From Spirometra erinaceieuropaei (lineage: Eukaryota; Platyhelminthes; Cestoda; Diphyllobothriidea; Diphyllobothriidae): a stretch of 64,000 bases of DNA. A model generated the notes under the pieces. The model was given only the letters and a program-made list of their open reading frames with translations. It was not told the DNA's origin and did no database searches. Positions 885 through 63,960 of this stretch are shown here, one piece after another (position 1 is the stretch's first letter; every line of letters starts with the position of its first letter). The stretch lies in assembly GCA_902702965.1 (NCBI GenBank), contig CACRXP010000114.1:245824-309823 (forward strand), written 5' to 3'. The translations under genes and the position numbers were made by a program.

Positions 885-1190
885 CTGAAACTGACAAAGG
901 AGACGGGACTAACCATTTCTGGCGTATTGGCCGCCGCCAGCCAATCATACCTAACCCTGAAGTGTGAAACACCTGCGGCTCGCTCCAGCAACCTGTTAGT
1001 TAGAAGTCCAGCACTTCTAATCGCTGAATTACGGGTTCGTTTTCTTGTCCGTTGCGATCGAGCAGATACAATGGTAGAGGGACGTCAACCGATCATTTTT
1101 TTTACGGAATGCGCACGTTCCTTTGTCCCTTGGGGCTCTCTCTCTCCAGCCCAGCCACCAGGTTCGGGATGTAGGCAGAATATCGCTGCG
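885..1190 (-). repeat. tRNA-Arg-like SINE, degraded copy
   Basis: This copy lies in reverse orientation. Its tail (885-975) is the hammerhead-bearing segment, followed by the tRNA-like part (about 975-1055, including the reverse complement of the 'gacttctaactaacagg' anticodon region) and then the body with its short purine-rich tract. The hammerhead core is mutated: CUGGCGG replaces CUGACGA. It is probably an old copy. Confidence 0.75.
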
Positions 1191-1227
1191 AAAACGACGA
1201 GGGAGACTAGCTTATTAGCCGTTTTTT

Positions 1228-1480
1228 GGGCGCTGGACTTCTAACCAACAGGCTGCATGGTCATGCCCCAGTTGTTTCACACTCTGGGGCTGGGTATGAC
1301 GACGACGACGACTAATGAGCCAGAAAAGGTCATTCCAGTCTCCCCTGTCTTTGTCAAATGTAGTATTTTGCCTATATTACGCGCCGCTGTGCGGCTGCTG
1401 GCTTAGCTCGAGAGAGCGAGGGAGCCCTTGGTCACAACGGGACGCGTGACTTCGGCAAAAACGATCCGCCCATCTACCAT
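1228..1480 (+). repeat. tRNA-Arg-like SINE, degraded copy facing the preceding one
   Basis: This copy is in forward orientation. It has the tRNA-like 3' part ('ggacttctaaccaacagg', 1234-1251), the 'ctggggctgggtatgac' tail, then the 'gccgctgtgcggctgctgg' body start (about 1383-1402) and the 'cacaacgggacg' block. The hammerhead 5' core has been replaced by a GAC trinucleotide run (1298-1312), but the GAAA side and CCAGTC remain. It lies opposite the copy at 885-1190. Confidence 0.75.
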
Positions 1481-3760: not shown

Positions 3761-5638
3761 CGCCGCTGCCAATTTGAGCCAGGACGCGTGGGGCACTTGC
3801 ATAACCCCCGCAATGCAAGTCCGACCATTTGAAACAGTAGACGGGTGCTTGGGCGAGGGAATAGAGAGGGTTGTGTTAATTCCGGGGAAACTGCGCCGCA
3901 TGGTACGATAAACAGTCTGACGCGCTGGAATCTATCGCGCTGGCCTAAAAGCCGTAACTTGAAGAGCTGCCAACTGGCGCGATGACTTGGTCTTCCTTTT
4001 AGGAGGGGGACTCAGGCTGCAATGACTCTGTTTTATTCAGTTGGTTAACGTTTGGGATTCTCCACACTCTTCCCGCAAGTGCTTCCACATTTGGCCCCTG
4101 TTGACATTCCCCTTCCTCCTTTTTTAACCCTCGTTTGAACGCAATCGGCGTTCTTTTAATAAACTAGTTTTGTATTCTGACCTTGAGCTGGAAATTCAAT
4201 TTTTTTGAACAGTAACAAAGGAATTTTTTGTCTAGGATATCCATTTTTTAGTTTTTTACGTTTTTTACTATTACCTTATTCTATCAATATAACCGTACGT
4301 ACACCGAAATTTGTTTTGGTAACGATCGGATAAAGGGCCCCAAGCACAAGACCAGCCAACGGTGCATGTTCTAAGAGAAAAGGTGATAATAGGGGTTTTT
4401 CTGGCGGGGTCTTTTTATGCATAGAGGAATGCCAAAATAAGTATAAATAATTGATAAATTCGTTTAATGCATTGACATGTAGCAACCAAAATTAAGCAGC
4501 ATAAATAAGAAAACAAAACTTCAGTGTCTATAACGATTGCTTCTCAACTCTCTGAGCTGAGATCATTGTAGATAATGCATCAGACCGTCTACAACATACG
4601 ATTCAACCTTGTACGATGAAACACCAAACTGAAATAATCGTGCTGGACTACAACCAACTTAAATAAATATAGCAGGTATTCTTTGTTTGCTACAGATGCT
4701 TGGGGGCCTTCACCCAATCCTTATCTCTTTTTTGGTTTATACGCCTGACTCAATTTACCAAGAATTTTACAGGCTTCTTCCTACTGCGGCCACCAGGGTG
4801 CACCCACTCAGTTCGGATCCAAGCCACATTGCTTTCTTTTTATGTGAAAAGACGGTCTGTGTGTGGCGCATGCGTCATGGGATCTCGAGTTTTGTCAGCC
4901 ACTGCGCCCAGTCCCATCACCAGTCTTCTTGACACTGGGCCCAGGTGCAAGAGAAAGAGGAGAGAGTGCGGTATATGCAGCACAAGTCTACGCGCAAGCC
5001 CTCGTTCCTGCACTTACCCTGCTGTCGGCCAGGCGTTAAACATCTCCGTTAACGACGATCGAGCTATCAATACTCTGGTTCCAAAAGTTGCTCAACCTAA
5101 CTCCTCAGAATTTAAAATGTCAAGCACATGTTTTCGGTAACTCATCACCAGGTAAATACAGTCAGGTGAGACTGTGGAGCGCCCAGGCAAAGAAAAGTAT
5201 AATTTGCATAAAAAATTACTTGAATTATTTAGTAGCCATGTTTTTGGCGAATTTTATTAATCGTCGATTGATATAGTCCAGATATTGCATGAACAAATTT
5301 ATGATGGTGAGATTGTAAAAACTGTTGGTGTTGAGTAGAACTCAAACTAGGCTTATGTGCAGTATCAATTCGAATTTCGTTTGTACAATTCCGCAACCAT
5401 TAGTGTAAGCTTTGCCGGTAAATTTTTTTATTTAACCACCGTCCTATTCATTTATGATTACAAACTGTAAAACTCCAGTCATAATTACTGGAATTTACAT
5501 ATAAATCTCTATTTATTAAGATATTCCGAAAATTGCATCCTCAAAATTGAAACATTTCAGCTTTTAATCGATTTGCAATTTAACATTTTCTGCGAATCAT
5601 GTAATTTTGGCACTTTGGGAAACTGGCTTAATGAATCA
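3761..5638. other. Mostly unassigned sequence with small repeat remnants
   Basis: No credible gene. About 4317-4420 weakly resembles family C ('aataggggtttttctggcgggg'-like block). About 5116-5165 resembles the extreme 3' tip of PLE-1 in reverse ('caagcacatgttttcggtaa'). The open frame at 4700-5140 (146 codons) has no assignable domain, and its neighbourhood shows only weak similarity to stretches near 25.1, 36.8 and 46.7 kb. Confidence 0.35.
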
Positions 5639-5760
5639 TTTTGCCTATATATCCTGCGCCGCTGTGCGGCTGCTGGTTGGGCTCGAGAGAGAGCGCTTAA
5701 GGCACAACGGAACGAGTGAGTATCGTATGAACGATGGGTGAGCGCCCCATACCATTGAAT
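5639..5760 (+). repeat. SINE body fragment
   Basis: Only the body is present: 'gccgctgtgcggctgctgg' followed by 'gctcgagagagag', 'cacaacggaacgagtgag' and 'ggtgagcgcccc'. It shares these blocks with 42460-42600 and 13350-13465. The tRNA-like and hammerhead parts are missing. Confidence 0.75.
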
Positions 5761-6119: not shown

Positions 6120-7000
6120 GTGGAAACTCTACTCCTTACCCTTCACGCGGAGTATTTCCTAAGCGATCCCCCGACGACTAAACCGGTTTGGCATCTCCAT
6201 TGCTCACAAACTGATGTCCTCCCTTCACTCGATACTATCCCAAGTAAAAGAGCGCATACCCAAAGAGCAGAAAGCTACTATCATCTACCGCATTCTATGT
6301 GCTAACTGCTCTTGCGATTATGTTGGTCATACAGGTCCACGATTTAAGACGTGTCTAAATGAACATAAACTAGCGACCCGCCGACGTGTCTCTTTGTCAC
6401 TCGTGTTTGCGCAAACCCTCAGATGAGACAATGGCTTCGATTGGGAAGGAACTGTAATGGTTGCCATGGCCAACACCAAACAGGCGCGAGAATTCCTCGA
6501 GGCCAGGTACTCTAGCACGGCCAGCAACAATCGTCATGTCGATCTGGACGCTCATTGTAAAGGTCTGCGAGCCCGGCCCACCGAATCGCGCCAACGACCT
6601 AACAAAAGCCAACAATCCATACTGAACCATTTAGAATCTCTCTGTTTCGCCAACCCCTACCCCAGACAAAGCAAATCATAACTGCACCGACTTCCGTACC
6701 TATGCCGGATCGACACCCACCAATTTCACTCTCGTTAAATCGCCATCCATTCTACCCTTTAACACAGAGAGCCGCAACAGTTACGCCTCCCCTCTCCCAC
6801 CCCAAACACTACAGTAATCATGTGCACGTTACCGTCACACAATAATTATTTTTCTGCCAGTGGCTGTCCTGTCGCGTAAACCAATTTAGTTTGATCACTT
6901 CAATTTCCCCTCTCTTTATTTCGTCTGACGACGGGTTGGTGGCCCGAGCTCGAAAATTCACAAGTACAACTTGATTTTTTCTGACGAGCTGTCTATCTTT
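6120..7000 (+). mobile_element. PLE-2 3' fragment with GIY-YIG remnant
   Basis: Translation shows the pre-endonuclease region ('LSQVKERIPKEQKATIIYRI'), then a GIY-YIG motif 'CANCSCDYVGHTG' and 'NEHKLATRRR', then after a frame change the C-terminal 'VAMANTKQAREFLEA' and 'NRHVDLDAHCKGLRAR'. This order (linker, GIY-YIG, HVDLD tail) is that of Penelope-like elements. The reverse transcriptase is absent and the frame is broken near 6424. The 3' UTR (6682-7000) ends with a hammerhead-like sequence and the CTCGAAAAT block typical of this family in the window. The copy at 62640-63650 belongs to the same lineage. Confidence 0.8.
6919..6967 (+). ncRNA. Hammerhead-like motif in PLE-2 3' end
   Basis: Core CUGACGA at 6925-6931, one extra C, stem II (GGGUUGGU side partly mismatched on the 3' side), GAAA at 6952-6955, a palindromic AAUU as minimal stem III and a C at the cleavage position. 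Stem I is UUCGU with ACAAG, with one C/A mismatch explicable by CpG decay. Hammerheads in PLEs are established; whether this copy is active is doubtful. Confidence 0.5.
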
Positions 7001-13344: not shown

Positions 13345-13612
13345 CGTGGAATGGCCGCTGTGCGGCTGCTGGTTGGACTCAAAAGAGAACCCTAACTGAC
13401 AACGGGACGAATGAGTTCCGTAAAACAATCGACCAGTGCCTCTCTACCATTGCATTTTCCCGACCGCAACCGGTGGCTCAGTGGTTGGAGACGTTGGACC
13501 TCTAACTAACAGGTCACGGGGTCGAGCCCCAGGTCATCCACGCTTCGGGGTTGGGCATGACTGTCTGACGACGACTAATGAACCAGAAATGTTCATTTCA
13601 GTCTTCTTTGCC
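13345..13612 (+). repeat. tRNA-Arg-like SINE with hammerhead
   Basis: Order: body (13350-13465, 'gccgctgtgcggctgctgg' and 'cacaacgggacg'), tRNA-like region with A box TGGCTCAGTGGT (about 13474-13485) and B box GGGTCGAGCCC (about 13519-13529), then the hammerhead tail. The segment between the boxes ('ttggacctctaactaacagg') resembles the anticodon arm of tRNA-Arg(TCT). It is a Pol III-type SINE, and its own transcription is an inference. Confidence 0.8.
13553..13608 (+). ncRNA. Type I hammerhead ribozyme motif in SINE
   Basis: Stem I GACUG/CAGUC, core CUGACGA (13565-13571), a stem II region (CGACUAAUGAACCA) that pairs only weakly in this copy, GAAA (13586-13589) and palindrome-like stem III AUGUUCAU followed by U. 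The core bases are present. Compare the best copy at 42142-42198. Confidence 0.55.
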
Positions 13613-13644: not shown

Positions 13645-13955
13645 GCTGAAACAACGTTCGCAGGGGTTCAACTACAAAATGTCCGGCGGGCATTGGTTAC
13701 ATAGTGGATCCGAGGGCGGAGTTTGGAGTTTTATTTCGAGCAACGGCTGGGTGGGATGCATTGTTGACCATCCTTTTTGTGGTTTTTGGCAATTAGATAG
13801 TCAATGGAACATGCTACAGACTGAGCGGATGCAACGGTTAGAGGACGTCTCGTACCCAGATCTGTATAAGTCCCTCGACCACACTAAGTACTTCCGATTA
13901 TAACCGACAGGTCAACTGTCTCGCTGTTCGGTGGCATAGCGTTAGTCTACTTAGC
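13645..13955 (+). repeat. Dispersed repeat D, copy 2
   Basis: Direct repeat of 12530-12850. It begins right after the SINE at 13345-13612 and ends where the next SINE piece starts, so D may be carried with the SINE. Confidence 0.7.
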
Positions 13956-14085
13956 TCTCTACGACCAATGGATGCTGGTTTGAACCCCGGGTCACCCAAG
14001 ACCTGTGGTTGCTTTTGGCTAGCTGATGATAGTTAATGAACCGGAAATGGCCACCCCAGCACCTCTTGTCTTTGGTACCGTCACC
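13956..14085 (+). repeat. SINE 3' piece with divergent hammerhead
   Basis: It keeps part of the tRNA-like region ('gctggtttgaaccccgggt') and the tail. The hammerhead core at 14023-14029 is CUGAUGA, the most common natural version, with GGAAA at 14043-14047. Stem II is weakened. It is divergent from the other copies. Confidence 0.6.
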
Positions 14086-16289: not shown

Positions 16290-16925
16290 TGAAAAGTCAG
16301 GTTGGCAAACACATGTTTTCGGTGATTCTTCGTCAGGCCAATCCAGTTACATGAAAAAATGAAAATGTACAAAATCAATAGTGTTTATAGGTGTCTCAGG
16401 GGCTATTAAGTCATTAACACTCATCATCCCCACGCAGCCCGCCTGACAAGGTCGGCGGGTGTTGGTCCTCGGAGCTAAGGGAGTGGCGTAAAATAGTCTT
16501 TGAGTGATGTTCTTGGATTGAGTACACGCAGTACCCATCACTGTAATAAGGGATTTGAGGCGGCATGTCAGGGCTTTCTGACAGCATAACACCGGATTTG
16601 CTAGTCGTATAGCCACTGCCTCGGCCGTCACTAGTATCCGCTGACGTAGGCCTTTAGAAAAGCATGTTGGTGTCCGTTAGACAACCTGAAATCCTTCCTT
16701 GGCATCGACTTGGTGCTTCGTGTCGATTAAATATGCTAAAAAGAACTCGAAATCTATCGGGTTTCACCTCTATCTAGCCAGGCGAGCATACATTCACGCA
16801 CTCTCTTTACCAGACGTCTCGTTGTGCGGCCGATGTATACTGCTGCACAGGAGCAAGTGAATGAGTGGATGCACATTGATGTGGCCTCCAACGGTAGTCT
16901 CTCTTTACCTGCACTCATTTGCTGG
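16290..16925 (-). pseudogene. PLE-1 3' fragment, copy a
   Basis: Reading the - strand from about 16915: 'ATSMCIHSFTCSCAAVYIGR' (GIY-YIG with CSC), 'RRLVKRVREC', then after stops 'MTAEAVAIRLANPVLCCQKA' (16631 downward) and the conserved PLE-1 tail 'CRLKSLITVMGTACTQSKNI'. It ends at the 'tgttttcggtgattcttcg' 3' tip (about 16315). Several stops and no reverse transcriptase. Confidence 0.8.
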
Positions 16926-17065: not shown

Positions 17066-17868
17066 AAACGAATGAAAATGTACAAAATCAACAGTGTTTA
17101 TAGATGTCTCAAGGGCTATTAAGTCACTAGCACTCATCATCCCCACGCCGCCCGCATGAGAAGGTCGGCGGGTGTTAGTCGTCAGAGCTAGGGGAGGGAG
17201 GTAAGAGAGTCTTTGAGTGATGTTCTTGGATTGAGTACACGGAGTACGCATCACTGCAATTAGGGATTTGAAGCGGCATGTCGTCAGCACTTGAGGGTGG
17301 CGTTGGCCACGGCAGGGAGAGCGCTTGTGTCCGGGTTTTCTGACAGCATAACACTGGATTCGCTTGCCGTATAGCCACTGCTTCGGCCGTTGCGTAGGCC
17401 TTTAGAGAAGCTTGTTGGTGTCCGCTAGACAGCTTGAAATGCTTCCGTGGAATCGACTCGGTGATCTGTATCGATTAAATGTGCGAGAATGGAACTCGAA
17501 ATCGACCGGCTCTCACCTCTGTCTAGACTGGGGGGCATATGTTCACGCACCCTCCTAACTGGGCGTTTCTTTGTACGGCCACTGTATCTCGCTCCACAGG
17601 AGCAAGTGAATGAGTAGATACACGCTGACTTGGCCTCCACGGGTAGTCTGTCATTACACCCCAAACGTAGGAGGGGAGGGTTTGTGAAGCATACGCGTAA
17701 ATTCGCCGCGGGGAATGATCTCGTGATAGCTGTAGTTAAGCGCCGTCTGACTAGTTCGCTCGCTGCGTCCCTGCAAAAGGCAGTCTTATGAATGCATCTT
17801 TCTCTTCTGCAGTCGCAACAGTGGGCTTTGCATTGCATTCCCCAATATTTCGGAGGATAAATCTAGCT
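17066..17868 (-). pseudogene. PLE-1 3' fragment, copy b
   Basis: A second PLE-1 copy in the same orientation, about 140 bp after copy a. From 17868 downward it reads 'RFILRNIGE', 'LVRRRLTTAITRSFPAANLR', the GIY-YIG core 'CIYSFTCSCGARYSGRTKKR', 'VREHMPPSLDRGESR' and 'LIDTDHRVDSTEAF', then the PLE-1 tail. The endonuclease frame is open for 137 codons (17425-17838). In the family the YIG triplet is usually YIG; here it is YSG. The reverse transcriptase is missing. Confidence 0.85.
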
Positions 17869-21675: not shown

Positions 21676-21790
21676 CGGGTGCTAACTAAAAGTCCGAACA
21701 CTCCTGTTTTTCCGATATTCTGCCGCTGCCTGGCACAGCTTCGAGGGGTTCGACTCTTCCTGCATCCAACTTCGGTCTGCGCCTATAGAC
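21676..21790 (+). repeat. Short repeat shared with 57835-57920
   Basis: Shares 'gatattctgccgctgc' and 'aggggtt' blocks with 57835-57920, about 36 kb away. It is short and diverged; its nature is unknown. Confidence 0.45.
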
Positions 21791-34054: not shown

Positions 34055-34109
34055 TATATACAGCTGCTTGATAATCTCTTTAGCGTCTGAACTGCCAAGC
34101 ATCTTTCAG

Positions 34110-35126
34110 ACGACTCCCAGAACAGACCAGAAGCCGGCATGTTCCCACTTTGTCGGAAACGAAACCCTCGAGACGCGCTCCCCACTCCATCTTATCCGGC
34201 CAGTCTCCGAGGGTGAAATAGTCAACTTGGAGGCAATGGAACAACTCCTGTGTAGAGTTTACTCCAAGCACTTAAAAATTTCGCCATGCACTCTGCCCCT
34301 GCTCATCAGCGAGTCCGTCTTTCCCAGCATCAACTCGCGTCGCCGACTTTTGGAGCTGGCCTTTGAGTCGCTCGCAGTACCCGCCCTCTATACACTCAGC
34401 TCCGCACCTCTGGCACTCTTCTCCACACGTCGAACCTCCGGAGTCGTGCTGGACAGTGGAGAAGCCTTCACGGCTATTGTACCCATTCGGGACGGTCAGC
34501 CGGTGCACGAGGCCACCTTCCTCTCAACCCTGGCTGGTAACTTTCTAACGCAACGTCTCCGCGACCTACTGGCTGTCAAGGGCCACTATCTGCAGTCGCC
34601 TGCAGACCTGGAGGCCCTCCATGACATCAAACAGCGTCTGTGTTATGTCTCCGCGGACTTCTACACCGAAAGCATCACCTTTTCTCCGCGAGCCTGTTCG
34701 AAGATCTATGAGTTGCCGGACGGTCGAACAGTGCCTCTGGGGGAGGAGCTCTTCGGCTGTCCGGAGGAGTTGTTTGGACAGACACTGACGGCTGCCTGCC
34801 CTCCGTTTGCGGTTGGCCTTCCAAACATCCTGAGCGAGGCAATCGACAAGTGTGGTCCCGAGTTGGGCAATCTCATGTCGGAGAATGTGGTCCTGGCGGG
34901 CGGTTCGACCCTCTTTCCGGGATTTGTTGAGAGGTTGGGGAGGGAGTTGCGTAGACGCAGTCCTCGGGGACGTCCAATCAACATATACGCGCCTGAGGAG
35001 AGGTTGAATACCGCTTGGCGTGGAGGCTCGGCAATGGCAACTTTCGCGAACTTTCAAAAATTCTGGCTGACTCCGGAGGAATACCGGGAGCAGGGCTTTT
35101 CCCGTCTGGACAAATACTTTCACTGA
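34110..35126 (+). CDS. Actin-like protein, exon 2
   Basis: 338 codons plus stop, open throughout. It aligns along its whole length with actin residues 43-376. Conserved landmarks: 'VVLDSGEAFTA' for the second phosphate loop, 'DIKQRLCYVSADF', 'YELPDGRTVPLGEELFGCPE', 'VVLAGGSTLFPG' and 'WRGGSAMATFANFQKFWLTP', ending DKYFH instead of RKCF. The exon start was chosen at the phase-0 acceptor catctttcag (34100-34109), which leaves 14 residues before VGNE versus 12 in actin. Residues that position or activate the hydrolytic water in actin are changed: Gln (of GIQAV) to Ser, His (of GVTHS) to Ala, and the second-loop Asp to Glu. Family assignment to the actin fold is firm. It matches no standard Arp class that I can name, so I call it an orphan actin-like protein. 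Confidence 0.85.
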   Translation, partial: TTPRTDQKPACSHFVGNETLETRSPLHLIRPVSEGEIVNLEAMEQLLCRVYSKHLKISPCTLPLLISESVFPSINSRRRLLELAFESLAVPALYTLSSAPLALFSTRRTSGVVLDSGEAFTAIVPIRDGQPVHEATFLSTLAGNFLTQRLRDLLAVKGHYLQSPADLEALHDIKQRLCYVSADFYTESITFSPRACSKIYELPDGRTVPLGEELFGCPEELFGQTLTAACPPFAVGLPNILSEAIDKCGPELGNLMSENVVLAGGSTLFPGFVERLGRELRRRSPRGRPINIYAPEERLNTAWRGGSAMATFANFQKFWLTPEEYREQGFSRLDKYFH

Positions 35127-37909: not shown

Positions 37910-39984
<2,075 letters not shown>

Positions 39985-41115: not shown

Positions 41116-41170
41116 AGCCAAGTTGACAAACATATGTTTCCATTAATACTTCGTCAGGCATGAAGAGATG
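41116..41170 (-). repeat. PLE-1 3' tip
   Basis: Reverse of the PLE-1 end ('aagttgacaaacatatgttt', 'acttcgtcaggcatgaag'), about 55 bp, abutting a truncated palindrome A. Confidence 0.6.
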
Positions 41171-42057: not shown

Positions 42058-42121
42058 TAAGCATACTACGGATACTTAATCGTAAATAGACTCGTCGCAC
42101 TGATGATCTTTCCATGAAAGC

Positions 42122-42345
42122 ATGTTATTACCGACAAAGAGAAGGGAGACTGGAATGGCCATTTCTGGCTTATTAGCCGTCGTCAGCCAGTCATACCCAA
42201 CCCCGAAGTGTGGAACCCCGGAGGTTCTAACTCACAACCTGTTAGTTAGAAGTCCATGCCTCTAACCACTGGGCCACGAGCCCGTTGCCCTGTCGGTTTC
42301 GATCGGGAATATACAATGGCAGGGACGTTCACCGAGGTCAAGCCC
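42122..42345 (-). repeat. tRNA-Arg-like SINE, well preserved
   Basis: On the - strand: body end ('gtatattcccgatcgaaacc'), tRNA-like region with A box TGGCCCAGTGGT and the 'catggacttctaactaacag' anticodon-like stretch, then a tail with the best hammerhead. The resemblance to tRNA-Arg(TCT) rests on 'GGACTTCTAA' with both boxes correctly spaced. This copy adjoins a + copy at 42346. Confidence 0.85.
42142..42198 (-). ncRNA. Type I hammerhead ribozyme motif in SINE (best copy)
   Basis: On the - strand: stem I GACUGG/CCAGUC (6 bp) extended beyond a small internal loop by GGG/CCC; core CUGACGA; stem II GGCU/AGCC closed by AAUA with a C.A pair next to the core (C-G in the inferred ancestor, since two other copies have CCGGAAA); GAAA; palindromic stem III AUGGCCAU; U at the cleavage position. 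All elements of a type I hammerhead are in order. Activity is inferred, not shown. Confidence 0.75.
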
Positions 42346-42487
42346 CAGGTGTTCAACACTTCGGGGTTGGGTATGACCGGCTGACGACGGCCAATAAGCC
42401 AGAAATTGCCATTCCAGTCTCCCTGGTCTTTGTCGGTAATAACATACTGCCTATATTCTGCGCCGCTGTGCGGCTGCTGGTTAAGCT

Positions 42488-42530
<43 letters not shown>

Positions 42531-42600
42531 CCTTAAGGCACAACGGAACGAGTGAGTTCCGTAAGAACGATCGGTGAGCGCCCCTTACCACTTCCCATGA
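42346..42600 (+). repeat. SINE, forward copy with (GA)n tract
   Basis: Starts inside the tRNA-like B-box side ('aagccccaggtgttcaacac'), then hammerhead tail, then body with a (GA)n run (42489-42526) and 'cacaacggaacgagtgag' and 'ggtgagcgcccc'. Joined head-on to the - copy. Confidence 0.85.
42370..42424 (+). ncRNA. Type I hammerhead motif in SINE
   Basis: Core CUGACGA 42381-42387, GAAA 42402-42405, stem I GACCGG/CCAGUC (one mismatch), stem II GGCC/AGCC with one mismatch. Likely weaker than the copy at 42142. Confidence 0.6.
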
Positions 42601-43399
42601 AAGTGGCCTAGAGGCTTGGTGACTAGGATCACTTTAAACAGTTTCATATGAAAAGGGCGTTAGAGAGGACGTCCTGTTTTCTAGGCGACGACAGGTGTCA
42701 CACAGAAACCCTCGCAGGTAGCCCCGCGTCTCCGACAAAAATGCAGCGCCGTCATCCGCTAGGACGTGCCCAACTGAAGGTTGCAGCAAAACCGACTCCT
42801 GCCCCCGGCGCCGGACCGTCAGCACGTCCCTCCGACGTGGCCGCCAAACGGGATGTGAAGGCGACCTTAGCAACAGGCCTTTGGCCGGAATGCATGACTC
42901 ATGGGCCTCGGGACGCGTGTGTGTACATCCTGTGGCGAAAACATTCTGCAATGACGTGGTCCAAGTCACCTGGCCACCTAGCAGTCAGACTTTTCTAGGC
43001 TGTTTGGGTGTTCCCCCCAGGAAGATTGCATTCACTCGGGAGTCCCCACCCCTACAGACTGCCATCTCCGGACAATCAACTTGCAGCGTCCGCTTCTGGG
43101 CTGTCATACTTGGTTCTCACGAAGGGCCAAGGCACCTTGTCGTTTCCCAGTTCTGCTGACCAGGAATCTGTTCATTTATCACACGACTAGGAAAACGGAC
43201 ATGTGCAGAAGACACATCAAAGTGAAGTAGACGAGTAACTTTGGGACCGAGGCAAAGTTCGGTTTTGCGACGCACCAACCGCGGGAAAGAGGCTCTAAGC
43301 AAGCGAACCGGTGAGATCCAGGGAACAGCTGAGGAAACGGAGATACGATCGTTGAAACGCAAATTGCATTCGCCTGACGGTTAAGATTATCACTCGAAC
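42601..43399. other. No gene recognised
   Basis: GC-richer than neighbours; the frames at 42648-42998 (+) and 42634-42969 (-) show no known domain. Confidence 0.4.
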
Positions 43400-45045: not shown

Positions 45046-45462
45046 TCTTCTTCTTCGCTCACAAGTCTCTATCGTTCCTGGCTCCTCAAAGCCCTTCCAA
45101 CATTTCTGGACCCAGCGCACCAACACCCCGAATTGCTACCTCCCGACCGTCCCTGCCTCAAACCCCACGGTGTCCACGACGGCGCTCACCCTAAACACCG
45201 TTGCTCAGAATGTGATGTGCTGTTATTATCCCTATCTGTTGTTGTGTATGATTTCTAGTTGCAATGTTAATCCACAAGGTCAGGCAAGTAGAGCTCTTGT
45301 TTCAACGACCCTGGACTCCTCCCCACATGTACTTATATTCACTCCTACGACTGACGCATTGCGAACCCGAACTTTATGTCTGTGTTGGGACATCGTCGTC
45401 GTCATCGCCGCGGAGGCTGTGGCCGCGATTAACGACGGCGAGTCGCGGAGATTCTGAGCAAC

Positions 45463-45840
45463 ATGTTATTACCGACAAAGACAAGGGAGACCGAAATAGC
45501 AATTTCTGGCGTATTAGTCGTCCTCAGCCAGTCATATCCAACTCCGAAGTGTGGAACACCCGAGGCTCGAACTCGCGACCTGTTAGTTAGAAGTCCATGC
45601 CTCTAACCACTGGGCCACGAGCTCCTTGCCCTGTCGGTTTTCGATCGGGAATATACAATAATAGGGGGCGCTCACCGATCGTTCTTACGGAGCTCACTCG
45701 TTCCGTTGTGCCTTACGTGCTCTCTCTCTCTCTCTCTCTCTCTCTTGAGCCCAATCAGCAGCCGCACAGTGGCGCATGGTATAGGCAGAATGGCATTACC
45801 GACAAACAAAAGGGCAACTGGAATGGCCATTTGTGCCCAA
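45463..45840 (-). repeat. SINE array of about 1.2 units
   Basis: Order on the - strand: tail (45840-45785), body with (GA)n (45780-45625), tRNA-like region (45622-45560), tail with hammerhead (45558-45463). The tail block 'accgacaaa' occurs at 45471 and 45798, 327 bp apart, giving the unit length. The hammerhead at about 45487-45534 has CUGAGGA in the core; the distal tail keeps only its 3' half. Confidence 0.85.
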
Positions 45841-52334: not shown

Positions 52335-54003
52335 AGCCAAATCGGCGAACACGTGTTTTCGGTAATTCTTTGTCAGGCCAACACAGTTACATGAAGGAAT
52401 GGAAATGTACAAAAATTAACAGGGTTTATAGGTATCTCAAGGGTTATTAAGTCATTAACACTCATCTTCCTCATGCCGCTCACATAACGAGCTCGGCGGG
52501 TTTTGGTCCTCAGAGCTAGGGAAGGGGGGTAAGAGAGTCTTTGAGTGATGTTCTTGGATTGAATACACGGAGTACCCATCACCGTAATTAGGGATTTGAG
52601 GCGGCATGTAGTCATCCAAAGGCCAGCAAATAGTAATCTTGTATTCTCAATTTTGCCCATAAAAACATTTGCAAGAAACGGTCCCAACGGTGAGCCCATT
52701 GCCACAAAGTCGAGAAAACAAGATTGCAAGACATAATTGATGGCCTTGTCTTCTACGGTCGGTACGTGGACGATATCTTCTGCCTGGCGGATAATACCAC
52801 CGATACCGTGGGCCTTGTCCAGAAGTACATCAGTGCACACCCGTCGCTTAAGTTCACTGCAGCGGTCGAGTCAAATAACGAACTTGCCTTTCTCGATGTC
52901 TTTCTGCACAGATAAGAGGATGGGTCTATCCAGTGAGGAGTGTTCCGAAAGAAAACCTGGACGGGACAATACGTTAACTGCCACAGTTTTGTTCCCCTAA
53001 ACATCAAACAAAATTTAGTCCAGGGATTGGAGGCTAGAGTGAGACGCGTCGGCTCACCTGAAGCTATTGAACAAGAACTCCAACAGCTGCGGAACACACT
53101 TCGAGAGAACGGATACCCAAATAGATTTATCCTCCGAAATATTGGAGAACGCACCGCAAAGCCCACTGTTGCGACTGCGGAAAAGAAAGGGGTATTTCAT
53201 AAAATTACCTTTTACAGGAGACGCAGAGAGCAAACTAGTTAGACGACGATTAACTGCAGTTATCACGAGGGCATTCCCGCGACAAATTTACATGTATGTT
53301 TCACAAACTCTCCCTTCTAAGTTTGGGAGGTAAAGACAGACTACCGTTGGAGGCAACATCAATGTTCATCTACTCATTCACTTGCTCCTGTGGAGCGGGA
53401 TACATCGGCTGTACAACGAGACGCCTGGTAAAGAGGGTGCGTGAACATATGCCCGCCTGGCTAGACAGAAGTGAGACCCGATTGATTGTGAGCTCTATTC
53501 ACGCACATTTAGTCGACACGGATCACCGAGTCGATGGCTAGGAAGCATTTCAGGCTGTCTGCCGGACACCAACATGCTTCTCTAAAGGCCTACGCCAACG
53601 GATACTAGCAACGGCCGAGGCAGTGCCGATACGGCTGGCCAATCCAGTGTTGTGCTGTCAGAAAACCTTGACACAAGCGTTCTCTCTGCCGTGGCCAACG
53701 CCAACCTTAAGGGATGATGACATGCCGCCTCAAATCCCTTATTACAGTGATGGGTACTCCGTGTACTCAATCCAAGAACATTACTCAAAGACTATTTTAC
53801 GCCACTCCCCTAGCTCCGAGGACCAACACCCGCCGACCTTGTCATGCGGGCTGCGTGGGGATGATGAGTGTTAATGACTTAATAGCCCCTGAGACACCTA
53901 TAAACACTATTGATTTTGTACATTTTCATTCCTTCATGTAACTGTATTGGCCTGACGAAGACTTACCGAAAACACGTGTTTGTCAACTTGACTTTTCAAG
54001 TGT
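52335..54003 (+). mobile_element. PLE-1 with inverted 5' part
   Basis: Most complete PLE in the window. 52335-52612 is an inverted copy of the 3' end. 52612-52735 on the - strand encodes the reverse transcriptase motif 'FVAMGSPLGPFLANVFMGKI'. From 52736 the + strand continues with the catalytic 'DGLVFYGRYVDDIFCLADNT' (52745 on), 'LKFTAAVESNNELAFLDVFL', 'WTGQYVNCHSFVPLNIKQNL', 'RENGYPNRFILRNIGE', the GIY-YIG domain 'MFIYSFTCSCGAGYIGCTTR' with 'REHMPAWLDRSE' (53350-53480), and the 3' tail to 54003. The two reverse transcriptase halves are normally contiguous, so an inversion broke the gene. Stops and frameshifts add to this. Confidence 0.85.
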
Positions 54004-54559: not shown

Positions 54560-54703
54560 CGAAAAAGACAAGGGAGACTGGAATGTCCATTTCCGGCTTA
54601 TAGGCAGCCGTCAGCTAGCTGTATTCAACTTCGAGGTGCGCAACACCTGGAGCTTGATCCCGCGATCCGTTATTTAAAAGTCCGATGTTCTAACCACTGT
54701 GCC
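54560..54703 (-). repeat. SINE fragment, inverted member of a pair
   Basis: Tail and tRNA-like part on the - strand, with GCCGGAAA on the hammerhead 3' side and a damaged 5' core (CUGACGG). Meets the + copy at about 54704. Confidence 0.75.
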
Positions 54704-54900
54704 ATGGTGTTGGGTATGGCTGGCTGACGAAGACAGACAAGCCAGAAATGACCATTCTAGTCTTCCCTGTCCTTGTCGATAATATCATTCTGCTTATACA
54801 TCACGCGCAGCTGTGCGGCTGCTGGCGGAGTTCGAGAGAAAACCCCAAAACACAACGGGACGTGTGAGTTCCGCAGCGCGATCGGTGAGCGCTCCTTAAT
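54704..54900 (+). repeat. SINE tail and body, forward member of a pair
   Basis: 'gttgggtatggctggctgac' tail with hammerhead (CUGACGA at 54724-54730, GAAA at 54745-54748), then body ('gctgtgcggctgctggc', 'cacaacgggacg', 'cggtgagcgctcc'). Confidence 0.8.
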
Positions 54901-57613: not shown

Positions 57614-57834
57614 TAAAGAAGATATCATTTCTTTTCAAGTTCCTCAGAAATTAACCGCGAACGTGGAATAGGCCGGTGTATTCCGAGATCTATAGACGCA
57701 GACCGAAATTTGATGTATGAACATTTAGGCCAAATTACATCAGCCACAGTGGGATAATCGATTAATATTCATTAACTTTTGACAGTCAGCTAGTGGTATA
57801 TTTCGGGGTTACAGGATACCATTCCAGCGGCAGA
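57614..57834 (+). repeat. Direct repeat R, copy 2
   Basis: See 56262-56482. Follows directly on the right end of palindrome A. Confidence 0.9.
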
Positions 57835-57920
57835 TGTACTCGCTAAAAGCCCAGACACGCGTGTTTGGCCGATATTCTGCCGCTGCATGACACAACTGCG
57901 AGGGGTTTGGATCATCAGTG
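57835..57920 (+). repeat. Short repeat shared with 21676-21790
   Basis: 'gctaaaagcccagacac' and 'ccgatattctgccgctgc' blocks. Unknown. Confidence 0.45.
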
Positions 57921-59690
57921 GGTTTCCCAACAGTCCCGTGTGCAACCTGACTGCAACCCGCCCCCTTGCGGTGCTAAGAAATTCGTATCTAGTTCTACCT
58001 TATGTGATCAGGTCTTTATGGAAGTGTCCAAGACATAAAAACTACTGACTACGCGAGGTGTTAGAATTTTCCAACCAACGTGGTCTGTTAGCCGCACATA
58101 GTTTGCCTACAGACAGACCCGTACGTGTTCATAATATCTTTTTTCGTTCCCCTCGTGACTACAAGTTGTTTTATTAAAATATATTAATTAAACAGACGAT
58201 GGAGATTTGAGGAGGCCGTTTAGAATCATAAATTAGACGCTGTAGCCCGTGAAGCATGATGACGCAGACCTAAACGTTAAATTATGGGCATCTCAAGCGC
58301 TGTTTACCTCACTTGTACTCCCAACACATTCCAAAAAAATCCTTTTCCACAGAATACGTTTCTGACTAATCACGTCAGGGGAGATGTTTGCAGCCTTGAG
58401 GCGAAATCCAACGTCGCCTTAGATTCTGGAAATTTCCCATGCCATTAACCTCCAAGACTACACCTATGCGTTCGCGCGTCTTTTTCTACCGGAGAGCATT
58501 AATCTTGTGAGGTGATTTTCCATTCTGCGATGAAAAACCATCTTGCTACGCTGAAAAAAGGTACTCTTATGGTGGCATTCACTTATTATATTCCAATTTC
58601 CTAGCCGCTGAGTGACCTTTCAACAAGCGACTTTGCAAACACTGCTATTTCAGTGATTACCGCACCCTCGGAGCCAGGCGAACTTCTCTTCGACTTATTC
58701 AAACGCGTCTTAAACAAGATAAAACGGAAAATTCAATCGAAACCTCCTGAAACCACTTTTGGACACATAATATCATTAATAGGCAGTTGACTAACTGTCA
58801 TGCTTCACTTTACACTAATTCTTGGAGGATATTTACCTGAGGTGGATATAAACTGTCTTTTAAGAAGTTGGCGTGGTTCTGCAATTGTATTTACTCGTTT
58901 GTTTGCGAAATCTGAACTCGACCAAATGAGGCGAATTTACATCCTTTTCTCATTATCGCCTTTCTTCGGAAGACTGCCGCCCTTAACCGACGCACTACCA
59001 CCTTTAAGGCTGCTCATTAAGTTTTATTTAACTGAAAGGTCTCTTTGAGTGCATTTGAAGCGGTTTTCGATTGCCAAAGAATTTTTTGTGAGTTTACACA
59101 TATTTTATGAGGTTGTGATCATAAGTCGACCCGAGACCTGGCATGAGCTCCGTGCCAAGACGGGCAACAGGAGCCTGTCCTACAATGAGGTCAGGAGGGT
59201 GAAAATCTACCTTACGTAAATCTGCACTGCCTATCTGAATCTCTTTGGGCTGTAGATGCGCAGAGTCCAGTGTCAAATCATTTTCCGGGAGAGATCCCTT
59301 AATGCCCCTCCCTCCGCCCCCCCATCTTCTAGTCAGATGTCAGAGGCAATGGCTTCGGACGTTAGGGCAGAAGTCTGGACGAAACCGAACGCATCTCCCT
59401 ATCCGACTGTCTGGTCGGGGAATAAGGAGGTCGGAAGCACCGTCGAATCTCTTGATCCTGTCCGTAGATGAGGTCAGAGCCACGGTAGGGAGGCAACAAC
59501 TGTTTAGGTCGTTTGGCCCTCTTGCTAGATTGTTCCTAGTTTAGAAAGTACGCCTGTGTATTACAGGGAACTGAACTTGGCGGAGAAGCATCCTGCTTGT
59601 TCGACAGGCATATTAAAACATTGGGCAACATAAAGAAGGGAATACTGCCTCTCCCTACCGTCCTCACGGCAGGAAAATTGTACATGTATA
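57921..59690. other. No gene recognised
   Basis: The + frame 58800-59048 and the frames at 59245-59544 have no known motif. Confidence 0.4.
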
Positions 59691-59817: not shown

Positions 59818-60595
59818 TAGTAAGTGTGAAGAAACAGTCAAAATTTAAACAATGCCAAAAAAATCGATATTGCTCTGTCATGACTGACAATGGGTTAATG
59901 CCGTGGGCTGATGTCACGTCGTGATTGGCTATTACCTTTTCAATTTTTCTTTGATACTTGTGTACATGGTATCAAGGTCGATGCGTTGATTGATGCATGA
60001 ATCATCAGAGTGAATGGCCTCTAGGAATTCTCGGCCTTTCTTATATGGGCAGGAACCGACAATGCGTGTTTTATCCCAAGCGAATTTGTGCCCAGTGGCT
60101 CACAAACCGACTACCACGCTACGCAATCAGCTTGTACACCCTAAGAATAGGGTTGGCTATTTGGATAAGAAAGAAGTAGTCTATAAGATTCCGTGTGGCA
60201 CTTGTAATGCAGTGTATTGTGGTCAAACCGGAAAATCCGACTCTACACGCCTACATGAACACCAATTGGCAGTGAAGAGGCGGGACCACTTATCCCAAGT
60301 CGCCATGCATACTCTTGAAACTGGGCACAAATTCGCTTGGGATAAAACACGCATTGTCGGTTCCTGCCCATATAAGAAAGGCCAAGAATTCCTAGAGGCC
60401 ATTCACTCTGATGATTCATGCATCAATCGACGCATCGACCTTGATACCATGTACACAAGTATCAAAGAAAAATTGAAAAGGTAATAGCCAATCACGACGT
60501 GACATCAGCCCACGGCATTAACCCATTGTCAGTCATGACAGAGCAATATCGATTTTTTTGGCATTGTTTAAATTTTGACTGTTTCTTCACACTTA

Positions 60596-60708: not shown

Positions 60709-61281
60709 CAGAGGGGAGACGACAGAGTCTGGGGGTAGATTGATACAGCACTGTTTCGGGCTTGTTTGCCTTCATTCCCCCTCTGCTATCATAGCTTGGC
60801 CGACTTCGGCCTGGTAGGTGGTTGCCTGTTCGTGACCCCTATCGCCCATACGAAGCTTGTTTGCTTCGGGAAGCCAATGGATCGGTGTGCGCCCATTCCT
60901 GAGTGAATAAATACCCGATCTGCAGCGACAGAGAATGGCAGGTGGCGAGGCACTGATGAACTTCTGTTCGATGAAGTGCTTATGACCCATCTGGTAGACC
61001 CCAGTGGTGGACCAGCTGCGCCAGGTGCGTCTGGGCGCATGTTTGTGTTTCCGGTACCAGCTGCTGGTGGTCAGGGTTATGATTGGCTGAATGAAGGCAA
61101 ACAAGCCCGAAACAGTGCTGTATCAATCTACCCCCAGACTCTGTCGTCTCCCCTCTGCTATCATAGCTTGGCCGACTTCGGCCTGGTAGGTGGTTGCCTG
61201 TTCGTGACCCCTATCGCCCATACGAAGCTTGTTTGCTTCGGGAAGCCAATGGATCGGTGTGCGCCCATTCCTGAGTGAATA
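60709..61281. mobile_element. Composite element between (AT)n tracts
   Basis: Segment 60709-60776 is the inverted copy of 61090-61157 (68 bp), and 60777-60909 is a direct copy of 61149-61281 (133 bp). In between are 180 bp of single-copy sequence. The layout is inverted-a, b, centre, a, b. Both edges run into AT dinucleotide repeats. It has no coding potential; the family is unknown. Confidence 0.75.
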
Positions 61282-62639: not shown

Positions 62640-63650
62640 ATCAGACGTTGGGAGAAGTTTGCGCAGAGAGAGGCTACAACCTTCGAACAGTCGAGTTTTC
62701 TTCACCGCTGTCGCGATCATGGCATTCTTCTGAAGTCTCTTCGTTTTAAACCCACACTGCCCAATGAGGCTGGGAAGTCACTCGCTCGAAAATATGGATT
62801 CCGTGTTTTGAGTGCGATTATATCTGACGTCCACCATCGTCTTCAGCGATTTGAGGCGATAATCTCCGACCTAAAGAGCCGGTGTGTTTCAGCCCTGCCT
62901 GAAGACATTTTCGAACATTTACTGCAGCGCATAGATGCCACCGCCAAACATGCTCGTATGAAGAAGCGGACCGATCTTCAAGAGATGCTCCAAGCTCTTC
63001 TCCGTCCGACAAATGACAGAAACATATCTGTGAGAGTTGTCAACCGCCGAATCAAGCCTGTTGTCTAAAGGAATACGGTTCGGTCATGTCGATGCTGCGC
63101 CTACGCGACCCCTTATCTCTCGTGTTTGTACACGCTCTTGATTATGACCATCGTTTCAATTGGGACGGTACCGAAGTGGTCGCCATGGCTAACACCAAAC
63201 ATGCACGGGAATTCGTCGGAGCTTGGCACTCCGGTGCAGATAGCATTAACCGTCATGTTGACCTAGATGTCCACTACGAGGGTCTCCGATCACGGTGGAC
63301 TGACTGGCGCCCACCTTAAGAATAACAACAGCTAATGCGTGCCCGGACATGAATGATCTCGCCGACACGCCATTCCTCCCTCCCTGCGCTACTCCCCCCT
63401 CCCCCCCCCCAGCACGGTGAACCACAGCTGGGACCCACAACACCTACCCTCACCTCCTGCACCCATCACAACACGATGCACACCTCCCCCTCACAAGGTC
63501 GTCTGCTTACCCCTCTGTCTGCGTCCTCAACCGGCAGTGTGACAATGCCACCTCTCACATTCCACTTTGTCTGACGACGGGTTGGTGCAACCAGCTCGAA
63601 AATTTACGAGTAAAACTCTATTTCCGACGGACTTTCTCCTTTCTTATATA
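62640..63650 (+). pseudogene. PLE-2 with internal deletion
   Basis: 62660-63065 reads 'RWEKFAQREATTFEQSSFLH' through 'GILLKSLRFKPTLPNEAGKS' and 'HHRLQRFEAIISDLKSRCVS', the N-terminal region before the reverse transcriptase in PLEs. At about 63065-63085 it jumps to the C-terminal segment ('RDPLSLVFVHALDYDHRFNW', 'VAMANTKHAREFVGAW', 'NRHVDLDVHYEGLRSR', stop at 63317). Reverse transcriptase and GIY-YIG core are gone. The 3' UTR includes a hammerhead-like motif at 63565-63615 (CUGACGA at 63571-63577, 8-bp stem II with loop GCA). Confidence 0.75.
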
Positions 63651-63654
63651 TAGA

Positions 63655-63960
63655 TATGAAAAAATAGAAGAGGTTCTTCGGAAAAGTCGAGTTTTACTCG
63701 TGAATTTTCGAGCTGGTAACACCAACCCGTCGTCAGATGAAATGAAAACGAGGGAGAAAGTTATGTAGTCACAGTAGACCAGTTGGTTTGTTAGGACAGA
63801 ACAGACCACTGACGTGTGAGGGGGTGGTGGGTGGGCTCCCGAGGTCATGGTAGGTCCCTGAGTGAATTGCGGCATGGTTGGTGTCACCAGCTCGAAAATT
63901 CACGAGTAAAACTCGACTTTTCCGAAGAACCTCTTCTATTTTTTCATTATATCTACTCGG
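63655..63960. mobile_element. Inverted pair of PLE-2 ends
   Basis: 63655-63745 (-) and 63877-63960 (+) are inverted copies of the PLE-2 terminus ('cgagttttactcgtgaattt' and its complement) around 130 bp of other sequence. The left member has a full hammerhead-like core (63694-63742, -), the right only the 3' half. Confidence 0.7.

Follow-up and report, generated by a model that had tools for sequence, protein, structure and literature searches.

Repeat A is a very common, non-coding mobile repeat with a tRNA-like head in the genome of Spirometra erinaceieuropaei. Judged from its sequence, A is best read as a retrozyme-like, non-autonomous element in the style of Penelope-like elements (PLEs) that carries a hammerhead derivative with one old defect. 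We assign a probability of about 0.6 to the statement that this segment derives from a hammerhead, within a retrozyme-like element, and has lost some or all of its activity. The first-pass annotation of the analyzed stretch of 64,000 nucleotides (the window) had described a self-cleaving SINE with a complete type I hammerhead. The mobile-element half of this description is confirmed by the tRNA-like head with A and B boxes, the high copy number, the target-site duplications, and a unit length in the range of Sm-alpha elements and retrozymes. The ribozyme half fails the test proposed along with it: A gives no Rfam match where scanned and no covariation in copies up to 25% diverged, and its consensus contains a C.A mispair. 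A working canonical hammerhead in A is not supported.

Structure and copies of repeat A

The searched genome is an assembly of 758,707,415 bases in 1932 contigs, in which the window corresponds to C114:245824-309823 and from which all L-numbered loci were taken. The A unit is about 312 bp long and combines tRNA-like A and B boxes with a hammerhead-like segment. According to BLAST and nhmmer analysis of the flanks, its components follow in the order P (pre-head), T (tRNA-like), H (hammerhead-like), S, (GA)n, and E. Five tandem pairs among the first 100 of 3922 exact core places are spaced by 312-314 bp. The GC content of the unit, with the (GA) run excluded, is 0.56. The majority unit has no T run of four or more and hence no internal Pol III stop, so that a Pol III transcript of A would run through several units.

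The boxes were read by eye, from the copies and the consensus. The A box TGGCCCAGTGG, a good B box of the type GAGTTCGAGCC, and the anticodon-like stretch CTTCTAA are present, as originally described, but the tRNA finder sees no tRNA in the window. ARAGORN reported 0 tRNAs in these 64 kb and a tRNA, with an odd anticodon, in one of 30 A loci; the A consensus, at a threshold lowered by hand, folds into a poor cloverleaf. Only the A and B boxes and the CTTCTAA stretch suggest a derivation from tRNA-Arg.

The copies listed in the first-pass annotation were all recovered. With two fragments taken from the 42-kb copies as queries, blastn and nhmmer found relatives at approximately 893-1053 (minus strand), 1190-1350 (plus), 13471-13609 (plus), 13902-14071 (plus), 42138-42300 (minus), 42264-42445 (plus), 45479-45640 (minus), 54566-54706 (minus), and 54679-54788 (plus), as well as weaker A pieces near 45.8, 46.3, and 61.1 kb.

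The element that had been placed at 42142-42424 is indeed a member of A, but the region contains two copies head to head, at 42119-42317 (minus) and 42333-42589 (plus), a circumstance that had not been stated. The inverted arms of this pair are 115 nt long. The minus-strand copy, c5, consists of component P (42277-42317), the tRNA-like head T with A and B boxes (42213-42276), the hammerhead-like segment (42148-42192), and the start of S (42119-42143), where the insertion terminates at about S25-33. The segment comprises stem I, the core, stem II with C.A at 10.1-11.1, GAAA, a palindromic stem III, U17, and stem I. Its plus-strand partner, c6, contains a 5'-truncated tRNA-like part (42333-42354), H (42356-42423) with stem I mispaired at the third position, S (42426-42488), a (GA)n run (42489-42529), and E (42537-42589), which forms the other terminus at about E53. 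The whole pair is flanked by the target-site duplications CTTTCCATGAAAG (42108-42120) and CTTCCCATGAAAG (42591-42603), with one mismatch in 13 positions.

Two further head-to-head pairs are formed by c1 (E-P-T-H; 899-1129, minus) with c2 (T-H-S-E; 1229-1466, plus) and by c8 (T-H; 54572-54704, minus) with c9 (H-S-E; 54706-54898, plus). Copy c3 (S-E-P-T-H) occupies 13354-13604 (plus), and the diverged c4 (P-T-H, with T detected by nhmmer only) occupies 13889-14074 (plus). Copy c7 (45458-45835, minus) reads H(3' part)-S-(GA)n-E-P-T-H-S, approximately one unit with a hammerhead-like segment at each end, the upstream one being partial. A 5'-truncated copy at 5637-5753 (plus) retains only S-E and lies between AATGAATCAT and ATTGAATCAT, a 10-bp repeat with one mismatch. 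Copy c10, used as a genome query, retrieved only itself. Outside this genome, exact-pattern searches for A gave no match, with two patterns applied to viral contigs and one to genome contigs.

Insertion form

A is found as partial tandems and as head-to-head inverted pairs with target duplications. In 25 of the 30 loci found with the 42-kb pair, one outer end falls at S20-36 and the other at E47-53; in the exceptions (L008, L018, L021, L022, and L027) one of the ends is located in T, at S57, or in H instead. Since the query was itself an inverted pair, this sample is skewed toward such pairs. A tally free of that bias is provided by the first 100 exact core places, which contain, within 1 kb, nine head-to-head pairs, one tail-to-tail pair, the five tandem pairs, and two same-strand pairs further apart. 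The inner inversion junction varies from locus to locus, which rules out the inverted pair as one fixed fold-back element.

A flank repeat scoring at least 8 was found for 23 of 46 A clusters, compared with 4 of 138 shifted controls. These repeats are 8 to 25 bp long, and at least six of the 23 (L070, L061, L041, L029, L015, and L030) are AT-rich simple repeats that carry little weight. Because target duplications flank whole pairs and clusters, each A compound seems to have arrived in one insertion event. Of the insertion forms described in the literature, that of PLEs is the closest match found.

The natural reading of A is a non-coding retroelement with a head of the Pol III type. As the uniform tandem spacing suggests, synthesis and copying of its RNA would proceed in repeating units of about 312 nt. 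From the inversions, recurrent termini, and duplications we infer that A inserts by target-primed reverse transcription in the PLE manner.

Several open reading frames in the window resemble, by eye, pieces of a PLE endonuclease or RT: 60014-60484 (plus), 17425-17838 (minus), and 52373-52840 (minus). Pfam made no GIY-YIG or RT call on these frames. Relatives of the first frame occur in Spirometra and in Dibothriocephalus, and the Dibothriocephalus relative carries PF26215. The window also includes an inverted-repeat, MITE-like element with CTGACGACGGG near its ends (63560-63747 and 63656-63947; also at 6925 and 61343), with arms of 64 nt (86% identity) and 72 nt (99%). Among the other frames, 34068-35126 (plus) encodes a homologue of Actin-related protein 10. 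It shares 99% identity with a Spirometra sp. Aus1 protein (84% coverage) and 85% with a Schistocephalus solidus protein (95% coverage), which marks the window as DNA of a diphyllobothriid tapeworm. Another actin-like frame, on the opposite strand (37910-38908), coincides with a sub-threshold mir-3533 match.

The hammerhead-like segment

The series GACTGG-CTGACGA-GGCT/AATA/AGCC-GAAA-ATGGCCAT-T-CCAGTC, from which the hammerhead had been proposed, reads correctly on the minus strand at 42148-42192, but its completeness does not hold. Copy c5 reads CTGACGA-C-GGCT-AATA-AGCC-A-GAAA, with a C after CTGACGA and an A before GAAA that had gone unmentioned. These two bases occupy the 10.1-11.1 pair, where stem II meets the core, and form a C.A mispair. 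The type I core itself (C3U4G5A6N7G8A9, G12A13A14, A15.1-U16.1, H17 other than G, and the pair 1.1-2.1) is found in c5, in the family consensus, and in 59 of 102 distinct A copies, a set from which L063-L072 (chosen by motif) and gapped rows had been dropped. The consensus has all 11 core positions, a stem I of 6 bp, and a stem III formed by an 8-nt palindrome. It lacks the standard 10.1-11.1 pair, and the core together with this pair is complete in only 8 of the 102 copies.

Among the window copies, only c5 passed the hammerhead descriptor, and only when the C.A mispair was allowed. A descriptor as good as c5 produced 4 hits in 1080 Mb of Markov sequence (0.0005 per 64-kb window, 2.3e-6 per 312-bp unit), and one with stem III relaxed to two pairs produced 39 (0.0046 per window, 2.3e-5 per unit); a looser descriptor gave 0.175 hits per shuffled window in 40 shuffles. 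All these descriptors were composed after the motif had been seen. At 0.0005-0.005 per 64-kb window, a chance origin of the motif is unlikely.

In the 102 copies, core columns are conserved at 0.949, compared with 0.912 for the rest of the motif and 0.916 for the flanks (p 0.013 by permutation). Of the 33 variable sites in 284 columns, three fall within the 45 hammerhead columns, where 5.2 were expected, and all three are harmless to the fold, either keeping the pairing or affecting the free position 7. The 45-nt hammerhead fold has an energy of -7.2 kcal/mol; the minimum, -12.5, belongs to a different fold. The insertion termini differ from the predicted cleavage site.

Other CTGACGA...GAAA matches in the window were considered as well, and 12 of 13 fail the descriptor. 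The 61.1-kb copy was rejected as a better hammerhead: this look-alike (61040-61154, plus) has an extra core base, lies within an open frame (...GGQGYDWLNEGKQARNSAVSIY..., translated by eye), and recurs with the same sequence in L056 and L058; it was put down to coding sequence or chance. A second repeat with CTGACGA...GAAA occurs at 16317-16336 (minus), 53952-53971 (plus), and 41137-41157 (minus). By eye, the first two places show a stem I of 5 bp and a palindromic stem III resembling AACACGTGTT, but almost no stem II; this repeat may be a minimal PLE hammerhead.

The Rfam type I covariance model (RF00163), a check that the first-pass annotation had itself proposed, gave 0 hits on A in the window at the gathering score and no hammerhead at E<=10. 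It also gave none on eight loci (L063-L070), each with a copy having C-G (G11.1) at 10.1-11.1. The genome-wide search, in which 73 of 111,175 candidates were scored and which is therefore not exhaustive, yielded two hits above the cut-off, both in a different repeat, element B, and not in A.

Covariation in stems I and II is absent up to 25% divergence: paired columns show no excess over slid controls in the 102 distinct copies or in 114 rows up to 25% diverged. The 102 ungapped copies contain 12 double changes (10.3 expected), of which 5 are compensatory, compared with 0-6 for slid partners and 3.3 for random pairs. When rows had to be ungapped within the motif only, 122 distinct rows gave 18 compensatory changes versus 5-10, and the excess came from eight rows more than 25% diverged; the remaining 114 gave 7 versus 2-7. 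In the eight old rows, 11 of 15 double changes are compensatory, versus 3-6 with slid partners. These rows include c4, the 61-kb open-frame look-alike, which contributes three compensatory pairs, and rows of doubtful alignment; their excess is a hint of an older paired structure, not proof. The first count (165 rows, 14 pairs; 39 double changes with 21 expected, 25 compensatory) looked positive but lacked slid controls, and the later counts explain its excess. Copies of a single master may show little covariation.

The main rival to hammerhead descent is coincidence, in which the segment is plain SINE body of a tRNA-headed retroelement. We regard it as possible, though the less probable explanation. 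It would account for the negative Rfam result, the C.A beside the core in the consensus, the lack of covariation in copies up to 25% diverged, and the better alternative fold, and a motif of this rarity would turn up if thousands of windows were scanned. However, the simulated frequency per A unit is only 2.3e-6 to 2.3e-5, and the 11 core positions, the 6-bp stem I, and the palindromic stem III are all in the consensus. The compensatory excess in the eight old rows and the retrozyme-like unit, whose host genome contains real hammerhead repeats, also speak against coincidence.

The mispair itself can be followed through the genome. The exact 35-nt core occurs in 3922 copies with A at 11.1 and in 85 with G; with T at position 7 and G at 11.1 it occurs in 21. 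Among 77 near-full A copies, 72 have C at position 10.1, and at position 11.1 A occurs in 70 and G in 6. In copies picked without the c4 bias, G at 11.1 is found, in order of rising divergence, in 3/48, 4/42, 0/12, 2/9, and 2/23 (the last bin includes antisense mis-hits); A-to-G changes at other A sites in the same bins have frequencies of 0.011, 0.049, 0.069, 0.107, and 0.170. Thus, G11.1 is at background in the older copies and somewhat above it in the youngest. The C.A state of A is old and prevails at every divergence level, so that nothing points to the family as a whole ever having had the 10.1-11.1 pair.

With a mispair beside the core in most copies, the hammerhead of A is probably weakened or dead. 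It is unlikely that A is instead an active retrozyme in which dimeric hammerheads function with A.C as a wobble pair at 10.1-11.1. The 3922 exact cores indicate that A spread widely in the C.A form, and the core is slightly more conserved than its surroundings, but a ribozyme is not required for abundance, and mispairs at 10.1-11.1 were a ground for rejecting candidates in a published hammerhead survey (PMC3088659). Still less probable, in our estimate, is that A is a tRNA-headed retrozyme, mobilized by PLEs rather than LINEs, that reached copy numbers in the thousands with a functional variant double hammerhead using an A.C wobble in place of the 10.1-11.1 pair.

An old or small subfamily that had the canonical C-G pair, later lost by the main master, is very improbable: the standard pair in 16 of 19 copies fetched with the diverged c4, with 6 compensatory cells versus 0-4 slid, is discounted as a sampling bias, since these matches came via the hammerhead words of c4, which itself carries G11.1, and the excess of G11.1 in the youngest copies (3/48 versus 1.1%, 4/42 versus 4.9%) and among exact cores (85, about twice 1.1% of 3922) is offset by near-background values in the three older unbiased bins and by two tandem pairs of single loci (L005 and L035) among the young G rows.

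The likelihoods given to these explanations overlap, as two of the rivals share hammerhead descent with the preferred one, a derivative of reduced or lost activity. The latter is favored by motif order and rarity, the palindromic stem III, core conservation, the variable-site pattern, the excess in the eight old rows, the lack of a Pol III stop, tandem spacing, termini, and flank duplications, together with the Rfam-positive hammerhead of element B, which has a palindromic stem III in the same genome. Counted against it are the lack of an Rfam match, the old C.A, the lack of covariation up to 25% divergence, the better alternative fold, termini away from the cleavage site, and the GC content. 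A degenerate or variant hammerhead is still likely, given that single-master copies may covary little, the eight old rows show their excess, the genome-wide Rfam search scored 73 of 111,175 candidates, and an A.C wobble may cleave weakly.

Most likely, then, the segment after the head descends from a type I hammerhead of the dimer-forming kind with a short, palindromic stem III. Present A RNAs probably cleave weakly or not at all, because the spreading master has C.A at the stem II pair touching the core. Any remaining cutting would trim multimeric transcripts to unit length, and circularization and copying would follow, as proposed for metazoan retrozymes.

Element B and known systems

Element B is a different repeat with a 352-bp period that occurs in arrays (e.g., about 25 units at C14:1784592-1793220). 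Two of its loci contain the Rfam-positive type I hammerheads, at 42.3 and 34.5 bits (L031:862-935 and L032:1501-1572, both minus). The consensus hammerhead of B has CTGAAGA, G-C at 10.1-11.1, GAAA, a palindromic ACACGTGT, C17, and a 4-bp stem I; it is a better hammerhead than that of A. The intact-core pattern of B is found at 244+251 = 495 genome places. Of four further B loci scanned with Rfam only L046 matched, at 23.9 bits, below the cut-off of 34, and therefore B copies in general may score below the two reported hits. Decayed relatives occur in the window at 57828-57922 (minus), where CTGATGA is kept and GAAA is changed to CAAA, and at 21679-21759 (minus). Eighteen of 30 B loci, each about 3 kb long, contain A (two of these overlap places in other loci), and 4 of 30 A loci contain B; in L031, L032, L035, and L071 the distance between an end of A and B is 12-31 bp.

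The schistosome Sm-alpha/Sj-alpha SINE-like elements are, like A, tRNA-related SINEs with a hammerhead and a very high copy number (PMC2770079). The differences are that Sm-alpha-like copies are related to tRNA-Gln-TTG, whereas the head of A is Arg-TCT-like, and the Sm-alpha hammerhead was found by blastn with the Rfam motif, whereas A has no Rfam match where scanned. Among the matches listed, a literature search found no paper on natural hammerheads in tapeworms.

Metazoan non-LTR retrozymes (Cervera and de la Pena 2020, PMC7229834), reported for platyhelminths in general, are non-coding, with tandem units of 150-450 bp, target duplications longer than 4 bp, and a GC content below 50%. A agrees in being non-coding, in its unit of 312-314 bp, and in its duplications, but differs in its GC content of 0.56, in its mispaired hammerhead, and in a tRNA-like head, which the portion of that paper drawn on here does not mention for retrozymes. 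Element B fits these retrozymes better than A and, by its sequence, is a candidate metazoan retrozyme.

Minimal PLE hammerheads act as dimers. Their helix III is reduced or absent (PMC6155905), and A resembles them in its short stem III, but its 10.1-11.1 pair is mispaired. In PLE pLTR insertions, the terminal part is inverted head to head and accompanied by partial tandems and 8-10 bp target duplications (PMC3846280); head-to-head arms, partial tandems, and target duplications are all found in A. PLEs differ in carrying an RT-endonuclease ORF, for which the 312-bp A unit is too short.

PLEs have been proposed as the machinery that moves animal retrozymes, with the question left open (PMC7229834). 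A is a retrozyme-sized, tRNA-headed repeat with PLE-style insertions and target duplications, in a genome that also contains an Rfam-positive hammerhead repeat, and this combination makes the proposal testable. If a family has multiplied while its hammerhead was mispaired, it would also reveal whether such elements need a ribozyme at all.
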